From a virus: a stretch of DNA of 23,732 nucleotides. Where the stretch lies: the IMG/VR virus record IMGVR_UViG_3300027686_000034, positions 1 through 23,732 of that record. One strand, written 5' to 3'. A program made the translations under genes and the position numbers. The notes below the pieces were generated by a model. The model ran no database searches, was not told the origin of the DNA, and saw only the letters and a program-made list of their open reading frames with translations. Below, piece after piece: positions 1-14,043 of this stretch (position 1 is its first letter; each line of letters begins with the position of its first letter).

Positions 1-3000
1 TAGCAAACTCTTCAGCATTTAATTTACCTTTAGTTCCATCAGGAGATGTATATAGTACATTACTCTTAGTAAGAGCTAATGTATCGTCAAAGTCAAATAC
101 TCTAATTTTTTTAACAGGCTGATTTAATGAATTAGCTAATTCTAAAGCTTGATCCATTTTATTAAAATCACTTAGTATATCCTCATTAGTTTTTGAAAAC
201 TGCTGGCCTTTATTAGCAGGCGTTTGAACTCCGGATTGTAAAGCCTCTTCATTATTTAGTACTCTAGATTCTTCTACAGTTTTTTCTAATTGTATAGGTT
301 GACCGTAAGTGGTTTCGTCAGATATATCATACAAAGACATTGGGAACCTACTTTTATCTGAATATCTACCTGTTTCACTTAAAGCAAAATCTCCTGCTTT
401 TCTAATAGCCGGTGAAGTTCTTAAATATAGTTCTTTACCATCTTTCCTATTAACTAACGTATCAAAGTTATAAGGAATTATAGCACTGTGGTATTGATCT
501 AATTCTGAATCAAATAAATCCATAGAAGCCTTGTCATTTCCTAGTATAGCATTGAAAGCAGCTAGCTTAACTCTATTTCCAGGTACAGTGTGCTCTAAAA
601 CAAATGGATCTTCAATATATTTAGGACTACCGTCTTTATTTTTACCTCTTTTTATTTTAGGTAATTTAAATATTTTCTTTAAGTCTGCTTTAGTATTATT
701 AGGTATAAACCTAACATCTGAAGCTAACTTACCTAAACCGTCCATTCTAGCAAACTGTAAATCTATAAATACTGAAGCTGCTTGTGGTGTTATTTTATTT
801 TCAGATCTAAGAGAAGCCATTTTTTTAACAACTACATCTAATATTTCTTTAGCTCTTAAGCCATCAGGTTGTATTTCATTTTTAACAAATTTAGCTCTTT
901 TTTCTAAAGGTAAATCATCAAAAAACTTTACTCCATATTCTTTTTGTTGCTTTTTACTTAGTTTTTGATTGTACCAAGAGTCATGTGCGAATACTTGTTT
1001 ATTTATCTTTTCACTACTATCTATACCAGCATTAGCATTAGCATCTGTAGCGCTTCCAAATATGCCTTGTCTAATATTTCCTTCATCTATAAAAACTTCT
1101 CCTTCATTTAACTTTATAGATGGAGCTTTTTTATTATCCTTCAACTTGAATCTACCCATTTTATAGGATCCTACTAAAGCTGGTAGTATATACTTAGATA
1201 TTTCGGCGTCTGTAATAGCTCTTTTAGAATTACCTTTCTCATCTACAACTTCTTCTAACTTTAGTTCATCAATAAGTGTTACTATATCACTTCTTAAAAT
1301 ATTTATATTATCTATATCTTTGTAAGCTTCAATACCTGTTTTTATATCTATTTTTCTAGCTTTTGCTATTTGTTTTAAAGTAGAATATACACCAATATTA
1401 ACTTCTTCAAGTTGTATTTTAAGAGCTTTTTTTACGTAATCTTTCCAACTTTCTTTAGGGTCAAACTCCCTTTGAAACTCATCACCTATTGTTCTTAAAT
1501 TCTTTCTACTAAGTAAAGTTTTTAATTTACTGCTAGCTGTATTTACTAAAGCACTGGCAAACCACGCAGAATTACCTTGTTTTCTTAAAAGATCTGCATT
1601 TTCTAAAAACGTTTCAGATGACATATCTTCAGCTAAAAGTACTTGAACAATTTTATCTTGATTTTTAGCTGTTCTACTAAACAATTGAGGTGGTATACCA
1701 TCTCTAAGAGTTCTTAATGCTTCTATAGCTTCGCCATCTTGTATTAATTGTTCTCTAATTTCTTGACTAGATATTACTTGATCAAAGTTTCTTACAAAAC
1801 CTTTTAATATATCACTTACGCCACCTTTTTTAGAGGGAACTTTTTGATTCCAATTGTTTTGATCTTTACCTGTAATACCAAAAGCTTCTTTAAATTCAAT
1901 GTCTGATATATTAGGTTTTTTAATTTGAACTTCTAAACCAGCTCCAGTTTTAGATCTAACACTACGTTTGTTGTAAAATTTTTCTAATAATTTATTTACA
2001 ACACCTGTAGCTTTAAAATCACTAGTATATCCTTCAATTAAAGAAACTTTAGCTACATCCGTGTTTGAATTAATAAATTTTTGTATAGCTAACATTTCAG
2101 CTTTATTAAGATCAGAGTTTTTACTTATCTTATTAAATATGGACTTGCCTAGCTCTTCATCTCTACCTATCATTATAGATAACTCTTCAAGAGCTGTGCC
2201 TTTTAATTGCTTTATGTTTTTAGCTTTTAATGATTTAGCTTTTGATCTAATAGATTTAACTACCTTGTCTATATCGTAAACTTTAGGTAACTTCTCTCTA
2301 ACTTTAATACCTTCTCTCTCATCTTGTCTTACTTCTCTTTCAGTTCTAGTGTCTCTCGATGTTTCTTCTTCAGCTGCTATCTGCTTTGTATCTTCTGTTA
2401 TTCTTATAGTTTGATCTTCGGCTGATCTAACACCTAACTCTGTAGCTAATGTTTTTAACTCTAACATACCTTTATTAGCAATATACTGATTAAAAGGCTG
2501 TCTAGTTCCATTCCACTTTTTAATCCATTTTGATCCTAATATGCTATTTTTAGCAGAGTCTACATAAGACTTTCTTGTAATACCTGCTTCTTCTAAAATG
2601 TTTTTAGGTATTTTACTACCGTAAGAATTCCAAGCAGCTCCAGCAACTCTACCAGCTATTTTTTCAACTTGATCAGCTTTTATTACTTCAGCGTCTTCAC
2701 CAACACTTTTTAACTCTTGTATTTTAGCTGGACTTTTAGAAAACTTTTTACCACCAGCCTCTGCTTCTTCTGTACCTAGTTCAGATATAGCTTCACTAAG
2801 TTTACCTTCTTTAACACTTTTATTATATTCTCTTAAGAAATTATATACATCTTTACCTGTTTCAAACTTGATCTTAGCAAAACCTGCTTTACGCAATATA
2901 GGTGTTAAAAAATCTTTTAATTTAGTAAATACATTTTCATCGTAAGCTATTTCTTTCTTAGCTACAGCATCAGAAAATAAAGTCAATGCCTCGTCAGGGT

Positions 3001-4849
3001 TTTGTGTCAAGTAATCGTCTGAATAAAGTCTATTACCTTTTTCATCTACCGCTTGCAGCTTACTATCAAGAACACTTAATTGGTTTTCGTTTAGCTGGCT
3101 TTTAAATTCTTGTACTAATTTAGTAGCATTTTTACCTTTTAACTCTTTATTAAGTATACCATGTAATAACTCGTGGCTACCAACAGATACAGCACCTGTT
3201 TCTTGAGCTACTTCTTCATTAATATATATAATTCCATCTTGTATAAAACCATCTGCCTCAGCTTCTGTTTTTCCAAATCTATCACCAAATTCTTTTTTAG
3301 AACCTACAGCTTCTGTTTTTAAACCAAACTTTTTACCTTCTGTTTCTGCAAATTTAACACTTTCAGCTACTTGAACCTTTCTATCTTCTTTAAATACATC
3401 ACTTATAGTAGAACTTACCTCTTCTAATCTAGCGTCTATTTCTTTAATTCTTTTTTCTTGAGTTTTAGTTAAACTAGACTCATTAACTGCTTTTCTTTCG
3501 CCATCAAGAATTTCTTTTTCTTTTAATAATGCAACTACCTCAACCTCGTTTTCTCCTTTTAAATTTGCTCTTTTAGCTTTATTAGTAGCCGATTGTGTAG
3601 CTCTAAAATTCTTTTTAATAGCTTCTCCTTGCTCAGGAGTTATTTGAGTATTTTTAACTTGAGTATCTACTTGTTCATCTAATATCTTAGTAGAATTTTT
3701 TATTTGAGATATATTTAAATCAGCTTCAGTTACATTGGTTGACGGATCAAAAGCTTCAACTAAATTTTTGAATTCAGTATTTTTTAATTGATTATTTATT
3801 TTAACTCTATCAATGTTTGTGTTTATATTAAGCAATTGTTGCCCAGCAGTTAATGGTGCACTTCCTAATCCTGCAAAAGCTTCAAAACCTATTTCAGCTA
3901 TGTCCATCTCTTGACCAGCCACCGCTCTACCAGCAACCTCACCTAAGCCACCACCCGCTATTTCTACAGCTCCTGTGGCTGCAGCACCAACTAAAGGTGC
4001 AGATCTAAAACCTGCGGAGGCTATTTTACCACCAACACCTTTTGCTAAACCCATGGTAGCAACTTCAACAGCTCCAATAGCTAAACCTCTACCACCAGCT
4101 TTTACTCTTAGATCATGCAATTTTTCTGGATCATCTAATATCGCTCTAATTTTTTCTTTTGTTAAATCACCACCTGCCTCTTCTTGTAATAACTCAGCAA
4201 ATGTTAAACCAGTCTCCATAGCTGTCATACTACCAGTCATTAATCCAGTAATAGCACCAGCAACATTTCCAACAATAGGAACTGCAGTACCCACACCAAA
4301 ACCAACAGCTCCAGCAGCAGCACTAGCCGCAGCCACTTGCTCAGATGTTCTTATAGAATTTAGTTGCCCAGATATAGAACTAACTAACATAGATGTTAAA
4401 GTTGTTGGATTATTCCAAGCACCTATTACAAAACCAGCCCATCCTCCACCTTCTTCTTCATATATCTTATTAAAAGATTTCATCTCGTCAGACTCCATAC
4501 TTACTTCTGCAAGATTTTTATTAGCTTCTACAAACTTTAAAATTTCTTCATCTGTAGATTCACTTCCTTCATAGAATATATCTAAACTAGGATCAACTGA
4601 TTTAGCTTGTTCTACACCTTGAGTCCAAGCCCTAGATATGTCACCAAAGAAATCTGTTACTGCATTTTTTCCAATACCAGGTATTTTTTCAATTGCAGTA
4701 AGTTTTTCACCTGACTCTTCTTCATCTTCTTTAATAGGTTCAATTTCAGTTTCTTCACTTATTATTAAATCATCTATACTATTAGTTTCTTCTACAACTT
4801 CTTCTACAGTGTCTTCTATTATTAAATCCTCTATACCGCTTTCTTGCAT
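1..4849 (-). CDS. Giant multidomain virion/ejection-type protein, partial at C-terminus
   Basis: The frame is open from an ATG at 4849 to the left edge, giving 1616 codons with no stop, so the C-terminus is missing. In order I see: an acidic leader (about residues 8-50); Gly/Ala-rich hydrophobic stretches (about 134-216 and 250-340) that could be membrane-active; a charged helical region; an HELLH motif at residues 559-563 (bases 3161-3175), which fits the HExxH zinc-binding signature of zincin peptidases; a long Lys/Glu-rich helical region; and at the visible end VFDFDDTLALTKS with DFDDT at 1586-1590 (bases 80-94), the motif I signature of HAD phosphatases. KKFSKS (701-706) and QQFSKT (1549-1554) look like related linkers. 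It starts 6 bases after the upstream stop. Size, composition and position after internal-protein genes suggest a packaged, ejected protein. Enzyme activities are inferred from motifs only. Confidence 0.8.
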   Translation of the reverse strand, partial: MQESGIEDLIIEDTVEEVVEETNSIDDLIISEETEIEPIKEDEEESGEKLTAIEKIPGIGKNAVTDFFGDISRAWTQGVEQAKSVDPSLDIFYEGSESTDEEILKFVEANKNLAEVSMESDEMKSFNKIYEEEGGGWAGFVIGAWNNPTTLTSMLVSSISGQLNSIRTSEQVAAASAAAGAVGFGVGTAVPIVGNVAGAITGLMTGSMTAMETGLTFAELLQEEAGGDLTKEKIRAILDDPEKLHDLRVKAGGRGLAIGAVEVATMGLAKGVGGKIASAGFRSAPLVGAAATGAVEIAGGGLGEVAGRAVAGQEMDIAEIGFEAFAGLGSAPLTAGQQLLNINTNIDRVKINNQLKNTEFKNLVEAFDPSTNVTEADLNISQIKNSTKILDEQVDTQVKNTQITPEQGEAIKKNFRATQSATNKAKRANLKGENEVEVVALLKEKEILDGERKAVNESSLTKTQEKRIKEIDARLEEVSSTISDVFKEDRKVQVAESVKFAETEGKKFGLKTEAVGSKKEFGDRFGKTEAEADGFIQDGIIYINEEVAQETGAVSVGSHELLHGILNKELKGKNATKLVQEFKSQLNENQLSVLDSKLQAVDEKGNRLYSDDYLTQNPDEALTLFSDAVAKKEIAYDENVFTKLKDFLTPILRKAGFAKIKFETGKDVYNFLREYNKSVKEGKLSEAISELGTEEAEAGGKKFSKSPAKIQELKSVGEDAEVIKADQVEKIAGRVAGAAWNSYGSKIPKNILEEAGITRKSYVDSAKNSILGSKWIKKWNGTRQPFNQYIANKGMLELKTLATELGVRSAEDQTIRITEDTKQIAAEEETSRDTRTEREVRQDEREGIKVREKLPKVYDIDKVVKSIRSKAKSLKAKNIKQLKGTALEELSIMIGRDEELGKSIFNKISKNSDLNKAEMLAIQKFINSNTDVAKVSLIEGYTSDFKATGVVNKLLEKFYNKRSVRSKTGAGLEVQIKKPNISDIEFKEAFGITGKDQNNWNQKVPSKKGGVSDILKGFVRNFDQVISSQEIREQLIQDGEAIEALRTLRDGIPPQLFSRTAKNQDKIVQVLLAEDMSSETFLENADLLRKQGNSAWFASALVNTASSKLKTLLSRKNLRTIGDEFQREFDPKESWKDYVKKALKIQLEEVNIGVYSTLKQIAKARKIDIKTGIEAYKDIDNINILRSDIVTLIDELKLEEVVDEKGNSKRAITDAEISKYILPALVGSYKMGRFKLKDNKKAPSIKLNEGEVFIDEGNIRQGIFGSATDANANAGIDSSEKINKQVFAHDSWYNQKLSKKQQKEYGVKFFDDLPLEKRAKFVKNEIQPDGLRAKEILDVVVKKMASLRSENKITPQAASVFIDLQFARMDGLGKLASDVRFIPNNTKADLKKIFKLPKIKRGKNKDGSPKYIEDPFVLEHTVPGNRVKLAAFNAILGNDKASMDLFDSELDQYHSAIIPYNFDTLVNRKDGKELYLRTSPAIRKAGDFALSETGRYSDKSRFPMSLYDISDETTYGQPIQLEKTVEESRVLNNEEALQSGVQTPANKGQQFSKTNEDILSDFNKMDQALELANSLNQPVKKIRVFDFDDTLALTKSNVLYTSPDGTKGKLNAEEFA

Positions 4850-4855
4850 AATGTG

Positions 4856-6688
4856 TTATTTAATTTTAGATAATTTATTTTTACCGTCTATAGTTACTAT
4901 CTTGTATCTAGCGCCATTGTAAACTACTGTATCCCCTTCATTTAATTTTTCGACGTCTTCTGCTTTTTTAACTTCTATTTCAGAAATACTTCCACCTCCT
5001 TGACCACGTGGAGCAGCGCTATTTACACTATTACCACTTTTAGGCTTTTGAGATCCAGGTCCTATGTATATAGGGTTTGGATAAGTTCTTCCGTTATGTT
5101 TAAAAGTCTTTTGATCTCCAGTAGGTTTTGGATTTACAGATTTATAAGCAGCTACAGCAGCTTCATTTCTACGTCCAGCATATATAGTTTGTTGATCTAA
5201 GTTAATACTTCCTTCATCAGCTAACGCAGCTCTTATACCTTCAGCAGTATTAGTTCCTGGAATTACATCACCTTGCTCGTCGATTATAGAACCTATAACT
5301 AATTCATTGTTTTTAGCTAATTCACTAGCAAATTTTGTTTTTTCTTCTTTAGTGTCTAGGTCATTGTATTCATCAAACTTATCATCATCCATAATACCTA
5401 CTATATAGGTCTCGTCAATAACACTATAAGTTTTACCAACTGGATTAACTTCTGTTAAGGCGGCAGCTATTTCATTAGGATTACCAACTAACTCATTTGA
5501 TTTTTCAGCATAAACATTATACCTTTGCTCTCTAGCTTGGTCAGTTAGGTTTGACTTTGTTGATCCAGTGTTTCCACTTCCAGGTTTTTTATACTTAGAT
5601 CTACCAATAACCATTTTAACTCCGTCAACAGCAGCATTATCCTCAAGAGACTTATTAGCCATCCATATAGCTGCTTTTTCTCTTTGAGCTTTTATATTTA
5701 AATCAGTTTCAGACGCTGTAGAACCTTCCACATCCATCCAGTCGCTGTCTTCCCCCATCAAATCAGCCCAAACGCTTTGCATTCGTTCTTCATCATCTAA
5801 AATTCCTTTAAATTGATTAGCGTTAACCATTGAATCAACAGCTTTTTTTCTTTGTTCGCTAGTCATAAATTTAGTAGTAACCTCTTGATCTCCTACTTTT
5901 TTATTTTCAAACATAATTAAATCAGCATTATCTTTACCTCCAGGCTTAACAATATTATCATAAGCTACTTTTAAAGATTCAGATACATCAGGTACTTTTT
6001 TAAAATATTCTATACCGCTATTTTCTAAATTCAAAAGCTCTGTAACATTAATCATTGCTTCTTCTTTATCACCTGATTTAGGTCTAAAAAGTACTAATTC
6101 TCCTTTATTGTCTACTAAATTAACATCTCCTCCTTGAATTAAATCTAATAACAACTCTTGTTGATTTGTTGGAACTCTAGAGCTTATAGAACCAGGTTGT
6201 CCAGGCGGTATTTTTAAAGCTTCTTGTAATTGTTTAGCTTGTGCTGTTATTGGAACAACAGCATCTTTAAATTGTGTAACTTGATTATTTAAATAAGACA
6301 AAGTTCTATTGCCTTCCATTTGAGAAACAGAACCATCTTTCATGCCTTGTTTTATTTTAAAATATTTTTCCACTTGCCCATCAAAAAAACTATTTAAATT
6401 TTTATCAAATGTACCGTAACCAGTTTCTTTAATACCAGCAACTTTATCAAACATAGCTCTTTGCTCAGTATTTTGTGCTGCAAACAATTGCTCTTGACTT
6501 TGTCTTTGCAAAATATTATTAGCTATTATTTTTGCTGAATTTTTGTCAATTTCATTATTAAAACTTTTATTTCTTTCAACGAAATCATCAAACAAGCCAT
6601 TAGTTACTTTTTGAGGATTTGCATAAGCACCTTGCTTTCTTCTAGCTGAAGGTAAACCTCCTGAATATGTTTGAACTTTAACTGCCAT
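4856..6688 (-). CDS. Probable internal virion protein, 610 aa
   Basis: I do not recognise a named family. The protein is soluble-looking, rich in Gln, Asn, Lys and Glu, and mostly helical in character. The first 170 residues (including the stretch NNEIDKNSAKIIANNILQRQ) look like an amphipathic or coiled-coil region. A Gly/Ser/Pro-rich linker at about 540-575 precedes a short C-terminal beta-type module with LNEGDTVVYNGARYKIV, which resembles a small SH3-like barrel. It lies between the gp14-like gene and the giant ORF, where podophages encode internal core proteins, so a role as a virion cargo or ejection protein is the best inference. It starts with ATG after an A-rich leader containing AAATAAAAATATA and has no Shine-Dalgarno sequence. 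There is no cysteine-rich or catalytic motif I can point to. Confidence 0.75.
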   Translation of the reverse strand: MAVKVQTYSGGLPSARRKQGAYANPQKVTNGLFDDFVERNKSFNNEIDKNSAKIIANNILQRQSQEQLFAAQNTEQRAMFDKVAGIKETGYGTFDKNLNSFFDGQVEKYFKIKQGMKDGSVSQMEGNRTLSYLNNQVTQFKDAVVPITAQAKQLQEALKIPPGQPGSISSRVPTNQQELLLDLIQGGDVNLVDNKGELVLFRPKSGDKEEAMINVTELLNLENSGIEYFKKVPDVSESLKVAYDNIVKPGGKDNADLIMFENKKVGDQEVTTKFMTSEQRKKAVDSMVNANQFKGILDDEERMQSVWADLMGEDSDWMDVEGSTASETDLNIKAQREKAAIWMANKSLEDNAAVDGVKMVIGRSKYKKPGSGNTGSTKSNLTDQAREQRYNVYAEKSNELVGNPNEIAAALTEVNPVGKTYSVIDETYIVGIMDDDKFDEYNDLDTKEEKTKFASELAKNNELVIGSIIDEQGDVIPGTNTAEGIRAALADEGSINLDQQTIYAGRRNEAAVAAYKSVNPKPTGDQKTFKHNGRTYPNPIYIGPGSQKPKSGNSVNSAAPRGQGGGSISEIEVKKAEDVEKLNEGDTVVYNGARYKIVTIDGKNKLSKIK

Positions 6689-7397: not shown

Positions 7398-7802
7398 TTA
7401 TTTTAATATTTTTACTAATTCATGAGATGGTTTTTTATCATATCCCCAACCCAATTTCTTGTGCGTTTCTATTAATTTTTTGTGTTGTATTACTGAAAAA
7501 AAATATTTATAACCTAAAGACTTTACTTTTTCTTCAGCATTAGTTATAAGAAGCTCTATAGCGTCTTCTCTGTCATCTTCTCTATATTCTGGATTAGATA
7601 TAATCCATTCTAATAAAGCTGTTTTAGAGTTTGTTAAATAAATAAAGCCTGCAACTATAGGTTTATTATTTTTTTCAATAATTAATCCTCCTGTACCATT
7701 TTCAGGTAAAAAATCTTTTACTGGCGTATCCCATTCAGGCCAATTATTCCACCAAGATACTAATACATCCCAGTCTTTTTCTTTTAATTCTCTTATATTC
7801 AA
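7398..7802 (-). CDS. Small GNAT-like N-acetyltransferase, TTG start
   Basis: The 134-residue protein resembles the short GNAT-fold acyltransferases often found among phage structural genes. It has an N-terminal IRELKEKDWDVLVSWW segment, a central strand pair (GGLIIEKNNKPIVAGFIYL, LLEWIISNPEYR), then a helix and a C-terminal HKKLGWGYD stretch typical of the GNAT end region. The canonical acetyl-CoA loop (Q/R-x-x-G-x-G/A) is not clear: the equivalent stretch reads YREDDREDAI, so catalytic activity is uncertain. The start must be TTG at 7800-7802. The codon immediately upstream in frame is TAA, and no internal Met exists near the N-terminus. Neighbours are a tail protein and a gp14-like protein. 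The substrate is unknown; modification of a virion or host protein is a guess. Confidence 0.72.
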   Translation of the reverse strand: MNIRELKEKDWDVLVSWWNNWPEWDTPVKDFLPENGTGGLIIEKNNKPIVAGFIYLTNSKTALLEWIISNPEYREDDREDAIELLITNAEEKVKSLGYKYFFSVIQHKKLIETHKKLGWGYDKKPSHELVKILK

Positions 7803-9657: not shown

Positions 9658-12600
9658 TTAAACAACTCCAGGATTAACTAATTTAACTGTAAAAGAATCT
9701 GATAACGTAGTTAAACCACCAAACTTACCATTAAAGTCAGTAATTCTTAATTTAAGAGGATCGCTTGTTATGTCTGGTAAATATCCATTTGGGTATCCAG
9801 CACTTCCCCATGCGCTAACTGGTATTTCACATCTCCAAGCTAATTGATCTCCCTGATTTCCATAAAGGCCTCCACCACCTTGTTCAAAAACTAAATTATC
9901 ATATTTTAAACCTGTTGACGCATATACAACTTCTCCTATCATTTGCCTGTGCTTGGTGACATTACCAGCAGAAGCTGAACCATTTTCAATAGCTTCTCTT
10001 GGCAGTCCAAACACAATTGGAACACTAATAGACCCATTTTGAAATGGATTATCTGGAAAACCACTAACTAAATTAATAGGTGGAGGCTGGATAGTGAAAG
10101 AAGGTGCTATATTTGTTAGCAAGCCTCTGTTTATTATAGTATAAACTTGAGGTTGAAATGGCGGATTAGCAAGTTTTGAAGTAGCTTTTACTCTAAAAGT
10201 AAAAACATTTTGTTCATTATTTGATGCGACAGCCAAAGCAGTTGAAGAGTATAAAAATCCAAAATATGAACCATTAAGAGAACTAATCCCAGATGTTTTT
10301 ATTACAAAACTAGAGCCTACAGTCTGTAATTTAAATTTAAATGTTTGATTACTACCATTTCCATTTAAAACATCTAAAAGTTCTAAGTCAACATCATTAA
10401 AAGGTATAACTGTTCCAAAAGTATCTACAACTTCAAAAGTATTTGTTATGTTAGAGTCTGTAGGCACATTTTCTTTTAAGTCAAAGTAAATTACTTGTCC
10501 CAATGCCGTGTTATTGCCGCTTGAATCCTTTACTCCTCCTGGAGTTCCGTCAAGATCATTAGTATCGTTTTCTATTGCGTTGTTTAAATCTGATATTAAA
10601 CCAGAGGTTGAAGTTTCCCAATATATATCAATTGCAGACTCAGGTGGTTTAACTTCTAAAACACCAAAAGCGTTATAACCCACTTCTTCTGTAATTCTAA
10701 AGGGCGGATTAGTACTTGATCCACCAAAAATAGGATTATCAAAAGCAGCTCCAATTAAATTAGAATTAGTACTTAGTTTCCCTACAACTGGATTACTCTT
10801 AGCATTATAAACTCCAAAAGCTTCTGGCGGTCCCGAAGCTAAGTCAGTATTTGTTATGGCCCATTCTGCCTCTACATATAATCTTTTAGATATGCCAATG
10901 CAAGGATCTCCAAACAACTGGTCACTAGCATATAGTTCAACTTGATTTTTGCCTACTATTAGGCTGTCTATTATTTCATAAGGAGATTTTCCAACAAATT
11001 GAGGCTCTTGAACAGAAGAAGTTGTTAAAGCAGTTGAATTGCATGTACCAAGTACAAATGCACCACAGCTCCCTTCTGGTGTTCCATAACTAACAAATAA
11101 TGCTCTAGTAAATACAGCACCTGGTGGAGCAATAAGCCATTCTGTCTCTGCTTCACTTTTTGGAATATTATTTAATGTTTGGTTAATTTGAACACAAGAA
11201 GTTCCAGTTTGAAAAACTGTATTTAATGATAAGTCAGTTAACTTTCCTAAAGTAGGTACAGTACAAAAATTAGTTCCTAAATTATATTGAATACTCCAAG
11301 CTGTCCAATCATACCAAGGCGGAGAGCGAAAAGGCTGTGCCGTACTGTTTTCCGTATTTATATTAGGCACCCAAGTTGAAGTCGCAACTCTTGGGTATAA
11401 TATAGTGTCACTAGTTCTGAATTGAGTTTGTTGAGGTTGGACTTGTGCTAAATCTGCAGGTATTTTATTTATATTATCACTAATTAAAGTTATATAGCTA
11501 GAACTAGAAGATGCTGTAAGACCTGGCCTAGCAATATTAGCCCTAGGTTCGCCACTAAGTATTCCAGGAACATAAGCGTTGTAATAATCTTGTTGAGCTT
11601 GCTTTACTACAACTTTATATGAATACCAACCTAGCTCGTTGCGGTCTGATAATATATTTATTGAAGGTCCAATACCTCCTATAATTGATAAATCAGCACC
11701 AGGATCTGTTTGAATTGTTTTGTTAGACGCGTTTATAGATGTTATAATATTATTAAATACACTGCCAGAAAGATCTCTACCTGAAACGATTTGTCCAACA
11801 GATATTTCATTATTCCAACTTGAAAGAGTGTAAACATCAGCAGCTCCTCCTGTAGATGCTTGAGAAACAACATTTACTTTTATTATTCCATCAGAGTATA
11901 AACCAGGATATCCACCTGCATAATCAACTACATTAGGTATCTTATCTTCAAAAAGAATTTTTAAAGAATTACCAAACCACTTAAATGGATTAACATCTTC
12001 ATATGGCGCATATATTGTAGATCCTGAAAATGAAATACCATTTTTAATAACTTTTTCGTTACCAATGGAAGAAAGTATAACGTCAGATTGTCTACCATAT
12101 TTGTCTGAAAGTACTATTCCAACTTGATAAGTTCTATTTTGTTTTAAAGTGTGATTAGGGTATTGAGACTTAGAACCTGTACTAATTAAACTAGAGGTTT
12201 TTGTTGTTGGAGAAGAAGCATCGCATTTGCTAGATACACCTACACCAAAATCTAAAGTTAATGGAGGTGTTTGTCTATCAAAAAAATTACCATAAATTAT
12301 TCTGTTACCAGAAGAAGATTGAGTCTTTGCTCTAACAGGTATTTTGTCGTAAACTCTAGTTATATCTTTAGCTGGCAAAACTTTTGTTGGTCTTCTTGAT
12401 TGGTAGTCGTATTTTAAAATATTACTTGAATTAGTAATTAAACTAGGGTCTGTTGTGGAAATAGTATCTAAAACTTTTACTGCTAAACCATTAGACTCTT
12501 TATATAATATGTCTATTTCAATAATTTTTAATTCTGAATTTAATTTATTAACGCTAGTTGGCGTAGTTATATTTATACCTACCTCATTTACTTTATTTTC

Positions 12601-14043
12601 AAAAAATGAAACAATAGAACTAGATCCAATTTCACACTCTTGAGACAATAAAAAAGCATTGGTTTGGGTATCTACCGGGTTTCCTGCGTTAGACTGCTTT
12701 GTAGGTACAGACAATATATAGCCATCTTGCTTTGGTATAAAAGCTGGTTGAGTAAAAGGAGAAATAAGAGAATATTCGCCGTCATCAAACTTGTATCTAT
12801 AACCAAATCTAACAAATTTATCTTTTAAAAAATCAGAGTCTCCAACAAAATTTGCATTGTAATATGGGTTTTGCTCGTGAAACATTATTTGCGCGGTAGC
12901 CGGGTTTGGCGGCGCTGGGTTACCGGGTATTAGCTCACCTAACAAGGCATTAGAATTTATTTTTTGATTAAGAGAAAGTTGAATTTCACTACCTCCTAAT
13001 GCTTGCCTAGATAATATATAAGTATTTTCTGGTATAGCACTACCACAAGATATTTTCATACCCGGTTTAATGAGATCAAGCGCATCGGACTGGCTTGTGA
13101 TAGCTCCAAAATCTCTAACTGTAAATAGGAAAGTACCAGCCGCGGGGTTTGTAGTACCACCAATACCTGTTCTTAACAATGAAAATGAAGGTGGCAGCCA
13201 TTCTTCAGTTCTATTAACCATTGAGCTATCAATAAAAGTTATTGAACTATTTACATTACTAATACTCACTGTTAATCCTGTAATTAAATTAATAGCAGAT
13301 ACCTCAAGGCTAGATGAGTCTATTATTTTAAGCACTTGAATATTAACATTGTCAGGTTGATTTTGAAACTGCAAATACATTCCTTCTGTTAAACCAGAAG
13401 TTCCTAATAATCCTACAATTGTGAAAACATTATTATTTATACTACCGTTTCTTACTGTAGTATTATGTAAAAAAGGAGCATTATAAGGGAAATATTTTGC
13501 AACAGATATTTGATCAGAATTAGTATAGTAAGGCGATGTTGAATTAGCATCACTAGACATTGCTCTATTAATATTTATTTTTCTAGGTTGATTTCTATTG
13601 TCTGTCCAAAAAAGTAAATCTTCTATCAAGTCTATACCAAGCACATTGTGAGTAGTTGAGAAATTTAAAAAAGAATTATTAATTAATATTTGAAAAGATT
13701 CGTTTTTTAAATCATAAACAGCTATTGCACAGTAAGCTCCAGAAGGTGCTGGTATAGAAATTTGATTATTAGAAGTATCACTAAAATTAGTTAAAAAAGC
13801 AAATATTCTACTATTATCTATTTCTGTATAAAAGCCAATACAAGTCAAGCCCGTTACGTCGTCTAGGTTAAAGCTTGTTAAAAGCTTATTTCCTAAAACA
13901 TTTTCAAGAGCCCCAACGTCATCTCCTTCAGACCTACTTACACTAACGTTTTTAGCTTCTCTATATTCTCCATTAGATAATAACCTATCATCTAGGTCTT
14001 TGTTCATTTTAGACTTAACAAAAGTATTTTGTATTTTACTCAT
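9658..14043 (-). CDS. Large tail hub / muzzle-like protein, 1461 aa
   Basis: This is the longest complete gene here. Residues about 4-52 contain the recognisable start signature KMNKDLDDRLLSNGEYREAK, then SRSEGDDVGALENVLGN. I associate these with the large tail-tube/muzzle proteins of crAss-like phages and with T7 gp12-like tail proteins. The body is Ser/Asn/Thr/Ile-rich and beta-strand dominated, and early on has the propeller-like segment GIDLIEDLLFWTDNRNQPRK. The middle has segments that look inserted (about 950-1150), with several Cys residues (CGAFVLGTC, DPCIGISKR). The last 250 residues look like one or two Ig- or cadherin-like domains (NVFTFRVKATS, APSFTIQ), possibly for surface contact. 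It follows the ring-protein gene by 6 bases. Role in the short tail is likely; the fine assignment (muzzle, hub or nozzle) is inference. Confidence 0.75.
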   Translation of the reverse strand: MSKIQNTFVKSKMNKDLDDRLLSNGEYREAKNVSVSRSEGDDVGALENVLGNKLLTSFNLDDVTGLTCIGFYTEIDNSRIFAFLTNFSDTSNNQISIPAPSGAYCAIAVYDLKNESFQILINNSFLNFSTTHNVLGIDLIEDLLFWTDNRNQPRKININRAMSSDANSTSPYYTNSDQISVAKYFPYNAPFLHNTTVRNGSINNNVFTIVGLLGTSGLTEGMYLQFQNQPDNVNIQVLKIIDSSSLEVSAINLITGLTVSISNVNSSITFIDSSMVNRTEEWLPPSFSLLRTGIGGTTNPAAGTFLFTVRDFGAITSQSDALDLIKPGMKISCGSAIPENTYILSRQALGGSEIQLSLNQKINSNALLGELIPGNPAPPNPATAQIMFHEQNPYYNANFVGDSDFLKDKFVRFGYRYKFDDGEYSLISPFTQPAFIPKQDGYILSVPTKQSNAGNPVDTQTNAFLLSQECEIGSSSIVSFFENKVNEVGINITTPTSVNKLNSELKIIEIDILYKESNGLAVKVLDTISTTDPSLITNSSNILKYDYQSRRPTKVLPAKDITRVYDKIPVRAKTQSSSGNRIIYGNFFDRQTPPLTLDFGVGVSSKCDASSPTTKTSSLISTGSKSQYPNHTLKQNRTYQVGIVLSDKYGRQSDVILSSIGNEKVIKNGISFSGSTIYAPYEDVNPFKWFGNSLKILFEDKIPNVVDYAGGYPGLYSDGIIKVNVVSQASTGGAADVYTLSSWNNEISVGQIVSGRDLSGSVFNNIITSINASNKTIQTDPGADLSIIGGIGPSINILSDRNELGWYSYKVVVKQAQQDYYNAYVPGILSGEPRANIARPGLTASSSSSYITLISDNINKIPADLAQVQPQQTQFRTSDTILYPRVATSTWVPNINTENSTAQPFRSPPWYDWTAWSIQYNLGTNFCTVPTLGKLTDLSLNTVFQTGTSCVQINQTLNNIPKSEAETEWLIAPPGAVFTRALFVSYGTPEGSCGAFVLGTCNSTALTTSSVQEPQFVGKSPYEIIDSLIVGKNQVELYASDQLFGDPCIGISKRLYVEAEWAITNTDLASGPPEAFGVYNAKSNPVVGKLSTNSNLIGAAFDNPIFGGSSTNPPFRITEEVGYNAFGVLEVKPPESAIDIYWETSTSGLISDLNNAIENDTNDLDGTPGGVKDSSGNNTALGQVIYFDLKENVPTDSNITNTFEVVDTFGTVIPFNDVDLELLDVLNGNGSNQTFKFKLQTVGSSFVIKTSGISSLNGSYFGFLYSSTALAVASNNEQNVFTFRVKATSKLANPPFQPQVYTIINRGLLTNIAPSFTIQPPPINLVSGFPDNPFQNGSISVPIVFGLPREAIENGSASAGNVTKHRQMIGEVVYASTGLKYDNLVFEQGGGGLYGNQGDQLAWRCEIPVSAWGSAGYPNGYLPDITSDPLKLRITDFNGKFGGLTTLSDSFTVKLVNPGVV

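Follow-up and report, generated by a model that had tools for sequence, protein, structure and literature searches.

A giant polyvalent-type protein of a crassvirus-like podovirus carries an exchangeable module between predicted zincin peptidase and PNKP-type HAD phosphatase domains

Zincin-like metallopeptidases are found in several polyvalent proteins of phages, including the N4 virion RNAP and P1 DdrB (Iyer et al., 2017, PMC5512222). The metallopeptidase fold described for these proteins consists of three core strands, a helix with the HExxH motif and a glutamate on a later helix, and self-cleavage by the zincin has been proposed (PMC5512222). In phiCrAss001, cargo proteins gp45–gp50 were found in virions by mass spectrometry (PMC10172136). 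Phage proteins that are injected with the DNA act before any phage gene expression and therefore reveal which host defences matter first.

The window, i.e. the whole stretch of DNA analysed here, is a 23.7-kb virus record in which all long genes are on the minus strand; the coordinates of genes, domains and motifs given below refer to that strand. The gene order is terminase, portal, an unknown gene, major capsid protein (MCP), tail and ring-like proteins, and a muzzle-like virion protein (9658–14043; Pfam crAss_MUZ, E-value = 1.4e-11), which anchors the locus to the crassvirus-like podoviruses. A muzzle C-terminal-like protein and three small to middle-sized genes follow, and then the giant gene. 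The giant is thus preceded by portal, MCP and tail/muzzle homologues, in agreement with the position after virion genes given in the original prediction. Because portal homologues are present in Flavobacterium phage elemo, Cellulophaga phages phi38:1 and Calle, Tenacibaculum phage Gundel and Maribacter phage Panino, and because the muzzle genes match the Pfam crassvirus muzzle models, the virus is assigned by sequence comparison to the crassvirus-like podoviruses infecting Bacteroidota. Judging from these relatives, the host is most probably found among marine flavobacteria. A scan of a genome collection gave 11 MAG contigs with mixed bacterial and archaeal names, which are no guide to the host.

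A 610 aa protein is encoded directly upstream of the giant (4856–6688) and corresponds by synteny only to elemoD gp71 and phi38:1 gp100; no sequence match was found. Positions 7398–7802, between virion genes, encode a 134 aa protein that matches PHROG 17252 (E-value = 5e-32, annotated unknown function); its positional counterpart in ctfjg026 carries the annotation N-terminal acetyltransferase.

The giant gene (2–4849) is cut by the left edge of the window. The reading frame extends from an ATG at 4849 to base 2 and consists of 1616 codons with no stop, while none of the other five frames over the same bases stays free of stops for more than 219 codons; the uninterrupted frame originally reported is therefore real. 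A second contig, L002, is near-identical to the window over ~22 kb (99.985% over 13.2 kb and 100% over another 8.9 kb) and contains the whole giant, a protein of 2411 aa (L002:10001–17236). The L002 copy adds ~800 residues past the left edge, where further domains had been anticipated and are found. Domains were defined by HMMs made from segments of the L002 protein and iterated over about 100 giants. They comprise N (residues 47–401), a zincin (509–692), D3 (730–855; 2285–2662), D4 (862–1059; 1673–2266) and a middle module, M (about 1063–1554), followed in L002 numbering by HAD (1553–1740), C1 (1743–2010) and C2 (2011–2384). D3 and D4 are conserved domains recognized as HMM segments. The architecture read from sequence is thus an acidic leader, a glycine-zipper-like N domain, zincin, D3, D4, the EHxxP module M, a PNKP-type HAD and the conserved C-terminal domains C1 and C2.

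Pfam gives no significant family for the giant, for its complete L002 sister or for ten M modules, and a search of the whole giant against the sequences of solved structures gave nothing convincing. No annotated phage was found by tblastn, either with the giant or with the HAD and C-terminal region. The family is nevertheless common in marine viral contigs, with more than 570 HAD relatives, and is almost unannotated. Among the best 80 HAD matches, the HAD domain is situated in an open reading frame of 2200–3600 aa in 80 of 80.

The leader (residues 1–46; 4712–4849) carries a motif in two copies, GIEDLIIEDT/SIDDLIISEE; this repeat was seen by eye and does not reach the significance threshold applied to the family. 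The net charge over residues 1–50 is −19. The N domain (3647–4711) matches PHROG 32588, annotated unknown function, and displays Gly/Ala-rich hydrophobic stretches that resemble glycine zippers, e.g. at about residues 172–204. Both the acidic leader and the Gly/Ala-rich hydrophobic segment of the original prediction are thus present. Leaders of the giants are strongly acidic, the first 60 residues having a net charge below zero in 97% of them. They often consist of a short motif doubled in tandem, the motif sequence varying between phages. Of 82 non-redundant giants, 34 show the doubling at p ≤ 0.02, vs 2–6 of about 82 in control windows. Leader relatives include L003, L012, L033, L044, L045, L083 and L094, among others. 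The acidic doubled-motif leader may act as a signal for docking or packaging.

The zincin metallopeptidase domain (2774–3325) is recognized by HMM, alignment and an AF2 model. A HExxH motif is expected by chance 0.002 times in a protein of the composition of the giant, and HELLH (residues 559–563; 3161–3175), at the position originally given, is therefore notable on its own. In 57 zincin relatives the only fully invariant columns are H559, E560, H563 and E620, and a separate alignment of 47 sequences shows these four alone. E620 (2990–2992), invariant in 57/57, provides the third zinc ligand, and the resulting pattern of HExxH, about 56 residues and Glu is that of a gluzincin-type active site. 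The AF2 model (pLDDT 85, pTM 0.82) shows a core of three strands, a helix that bears HExxH and, further along, a helix (126–137 of the model) that contains E620. Its top fold matches are all zincins: LF and Certhrax (lethal factor family), PPEP (Pro-Pro endopeptidases), Zmp1 and IrrE, with modest scores (Foldseek E-value of at least 0.14, Z of 5.8 or less) that are below the level decisive alone. The zincin profile gave no match to sequences of solved structures. By conservation and model, then, the giant carries a zincin-type metallopeptidase domain with predicted activity; the third ligand and the zincin core bear out the suggestion first made from HELLH.

The explanation that is favoured, by a small measure, is that the giant is a late-expressed polyvalent protein of a marine Bacteroidota podovirus, made together with the virion proteins and probably head cargo. 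Packaging and ejection are proposed by analogy, because the gene occupies the position of the phiCrAss001 cargo proteins and because homologous giants are annotated 'structural protein'. The zincin could instead be a maturation protease of assembly whose substrates, cut before packaging, are head proteins or the giant itself, with nothing of it working in the host. This appears somewhat unlikely; the polyvalent protein DdrB of P1, which has an MPTase, undergoes processing ahead of packaging, but the N4 virion RNAP with its MPTase is packaged unprocessed (PMC5512222).

The HAD phosphatase domain begins within the window (residues 1568–1616; 2–148, by HMM and alignment), which stops 26 residues past motif I, so that motifs II–IV are visible in relatives only. 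Motif I is DFDDT (residues 1586–1590; 80–94), in the context FDFDDT (1585–1590), again where originally located. By chance the giant should contain 0.34 bare DxDxT motifs; motif I alone is therefore unconvincing and the HAD claim needed other tests, the decisive one, as for the zincin, being conservation in relatives. The nearest relative is L002; the final 190 nt of the window are 90% identical to it in DNA. In L002 and 80-odd relatives, motif I is found in 84/84, motif II (T1650, in LTAR) in 81/81, motif III (K1687) in 81/81 and motif IV (DD1706–1707) in 81/84, levels that are biased upward because the set was collected with HAD as query and the best 80 were retained. With motifs II–IV and a Rossmannoid fold (Z up to 12.0) in the complete sister, the domain is, by sequence and model, a phosphatase with the HAD fold, as had been predicted from motif I.

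The only strong sequence family for the HAD is PHROG 415, polynucleotide kinase (E-value = 8e-9). It gives one match each in 13 of 15 related virus records; of the matches listed, 12 are in open frames of >2300 aa and one in a frame of 2371 aa, all of them giant frames. The best structural match of the HAD part is the T4 Pnkp 3′-phosphatase (Z = 12.0, rmsd 2.4, 126 residues), and Pnkp1 of the Pnkp1/Rnl/Hen1 RNA repair complex has Z = 11.4. On structural re-alignment PNKP 3′-phosphatases are first (Z = 10.8–12.0), with Z below about 10 for every other HAD; PNKP phosphatases also turn up repeatedly among viral models. Searched alone against the sequences of solved structures, the HAD yields weak PNKP matches only (E-value = 0.3), and the M+HAD profile yields nothing convincing.

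Because the PNKP fold is best (Z = 12.0) and PHROG 415 matches at 8e-9, a nucleic-acid 3′-end phosphatase is the likelier prediction when compared with a general nucleotidase. The earlier wording, phosphatase/nucleotidase, is changed accordingly, the closest proteins by sequence and fold being PNKP-type 3′-end phosphatases. Phage HADs are often nucleotidases, and an alternative to consider is that the HAD, as a nucleotidase or general acid phosphatase, dephosphorylates nucleotides or signalling nucleotides for takeover of the host, with no part in end-healing. The Foldseek ranking by E-value is indeed led by class C acid phosphatases, e(P4), at weak values of 0.04–0.15. However, with PNKP 3′-phosphatases at the top of the structural re-alignment and PHROG 415 as the sole strong sequence family, such an enzyme seems doubtful. 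RNA ligase PF09414, the one ligase family searched, is found in 0 of 15 related phage records, some of which are incomplete, and no kinase domain was found on the giant; a full RNA-repair pathway is therefore not seen.

Module M (residues 1063–1554; 188–1663) consists of ~490 residues between the zincin-side domains and the HAD, and in the window it is an allele unlike that of L002. From the ATG of the giant to residue 1053 there is no mismatch to L002; beyond this junction (position 1691) the two diverge abruptly. Leftward of 1691 the DNA is unrelated and the protein about 20% alike, and 85–90% identity resumes shortly before the HAD. The window and L002 alleles are distant homologues (hhalign 99.1%, E-value = 6e-19) and share an invariant EHxxP motif, which is EHTVP in the window (residues 1419–1423; 581–595, by profile comparison). 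A third M cluster also has EHxxP (hhalign 98.9% and 96.2%). Viral contigs scanned with the window M as query gave no match. Relatives of it surfaced within the HAD set, namely L097 and then L102 and L103; the L097 module is 36% identical and likewise directly precedes the HAD. In a structure search with M+HAD the list was filled by HAD matches, and the result covers the HAD part. A further M cluster, in L042 (about residues 1735–2200), L045, L063, L078 and L081, is without EHxxP. The L042 type shows a pattern, ISDF...NVEVK, that by eye only resembles a PD-(D/E)XK nuclease; Pfam gives nothing.

The same replacement is found in two other pairs of close contigs. L035 and L036 are 99.6% identical in C1, 98.9% in HAD and 94% over 200 residues upstream, with M showing no similarity. 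L061 and L089 share 96% in zincin, 95% in HAD and 98.5% in C1, and everything between zincin and HAD is unrelated. In both pairs the DNA can be aligned again from a point no more than a dozen or so codons away from the start of the HAD. The exchange is thus bounded on the right by the conserved HAD in each of the three pairs, and its left boundary is variable. As sequence comparison has it, phages that are otherwise almost the same in sequence have exchanged M, and this is a new finding here, absent from the original prediction because a second genome is needed to see it. The simplest mechanism that we infer is recombination of co-infecting phages anchored in the conserved flanks.

The difference between the window and L002 might also be an assembly chimera and not a biological exchange, since only one junction is seen, close to where a metagenome contig ends, and identity to L002 is no more than 90% in the leftmost 190 nt. 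However, the reading frame stays open across the junction, a window-type M directly precedes the HAD in L097 too, and M is replaced between close flanks on both sides in L035/L036 and L061/L089, two independent pairs from other data sets. These pairs make a chimera unlikely as a general explanation, and for the window itself it is improbable. It is very improbable that the giant is a virion RNA polymerase or a subunit of one, as found at this position in crassviruses: the place after muzzle and cargo genes and a size like that of phiCrAss001 gp47/gp50 would fit, but the window and L002 proteins have no DxDxD, whereas gp50 has DFDVD, and on this ground the polymerase reading was rejected; profile comparison with gp47, gp49 and gp50 gave nothing. 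A search with the RNAP family PF00940 was uninformative, with no match in any control.

For the favoured reading, a polyvalent giant carried as head cargo, the sequences show the architecture, the catalytic residues, the place of the gene and the exchange of M, and the following steps are proposed in order of decreasing certainty. The giant would be packaged and leave by way of the muzzle, either together with the DNA or before it; the glycine-zipper-like N domain would help passage across the inner membrane; the zincin would cleave the giant itself and release M and HAD in the cell; where defence nucleases of the host have cut RNA or DNA, the HAD would strip 3′-phosphate or 2′,3′-cyclic phosphate from the ends; and M would meet a variable host target, hence its replacement by recombination anchored in conserved flanks. 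A more far-reaching possibility, which we regard as quite unlikely, is that the giant is an injected counter-defence cartridge in which one exchangeable module is swapped to match different host defences. The constant carrier would then consist of the leader, the membrane domain, a self-cutting zincin, the 3′-end-healing phosphatase and the C-terminal packaging domains. This arrangement can be likened to polymorphic toxins, but with the variable part in mid-protein.

If carried in the virion, a PNKP-like end-healing enzyme would directly answer host nucleases, and replacement of M between near-identical phages points to the part under the strongest host-specific selection. Cultivable relatives in which both ideas could be tested are elemo, Calle and Gundel.

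Giants annotated as 'structural protein', perhaps by similarity, are found at the same position in Flavobacterium phage elemo (gp72), Tenacibaculum phage Gundel_1 (gp74) and Cellulophaga phage phi38:1 (gp101). ElemoD gp72 matches the zincin (E-value = 3.9e-8) and Gundel gp74 the C-terminal region (E-value = 5.6e-11), with no detectable match of phi38:1 gp101 to the giant; no HAD was found in the three. Passages of the literature on phages of Cellulophaga, the North Sea and the Baltic gave no virion proteomics of the giant. ElemoD gp72 (L116:2640–13913), a 3757 aa protein, carries a DUF3293 domain (E-value = 1e-12) upstream of its zincin. The Maribacter phage Panino giant in this slot (L113:35435–40924) contains a tRNA methyltransferase-like domain (PHROG 4752, E-value = 1.7e-16), another kind of enzyme built into the giant slot.

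The cargo proteins gp45–gp50 of phiCrAss001 are large as well and occupy the same slot after the muzzle. Profile comparison of the giant with gp47, gp49 and gp50 showed no homology; these three lack a HAD and the giant lacks the RNAP motif. gp47 (L119) also has a HExxH, HEAFH at 2157–2161, followed by a Glu in AEGF, which is a zincin-like pattern, but profile comparison gave no support for homology to the zincin beyond the motif itself. For the HAD, the best structural neighbours are T4 Pnkp 3′-phosphatase and bacterial Pnkp1/Rnl/Hen1 (Z = 11–12). In contrast to these enzymes, made after infection, the HAD of the giant is built into a probable virion protein.

The closest likeness is to the polyvalent proteins with a zincin-like metallopeptidase, with which the giant shares a huge multidomain chain, HExxH with a later-helix Glu, a late structural gene neighbourhood and varied other domains. 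The main text of PMC5512222 lists no HAD or phosphatase among polyvalent-protein domains, and its supplementary files may list the combination. With its several globular domains, enzymes included (zincin, HAD, M, N and C), distinct within one polypeptide encoded among virion genes, the multi-enzyme protein originally proposed is recovered. From its sequence the giant, a probable virion protein, is best filed as a novel variant of the phage polyvalent proteins, one that differs in belonging to another host group and in having its middle module swapped while the neighbouring domains stay nearly constant.
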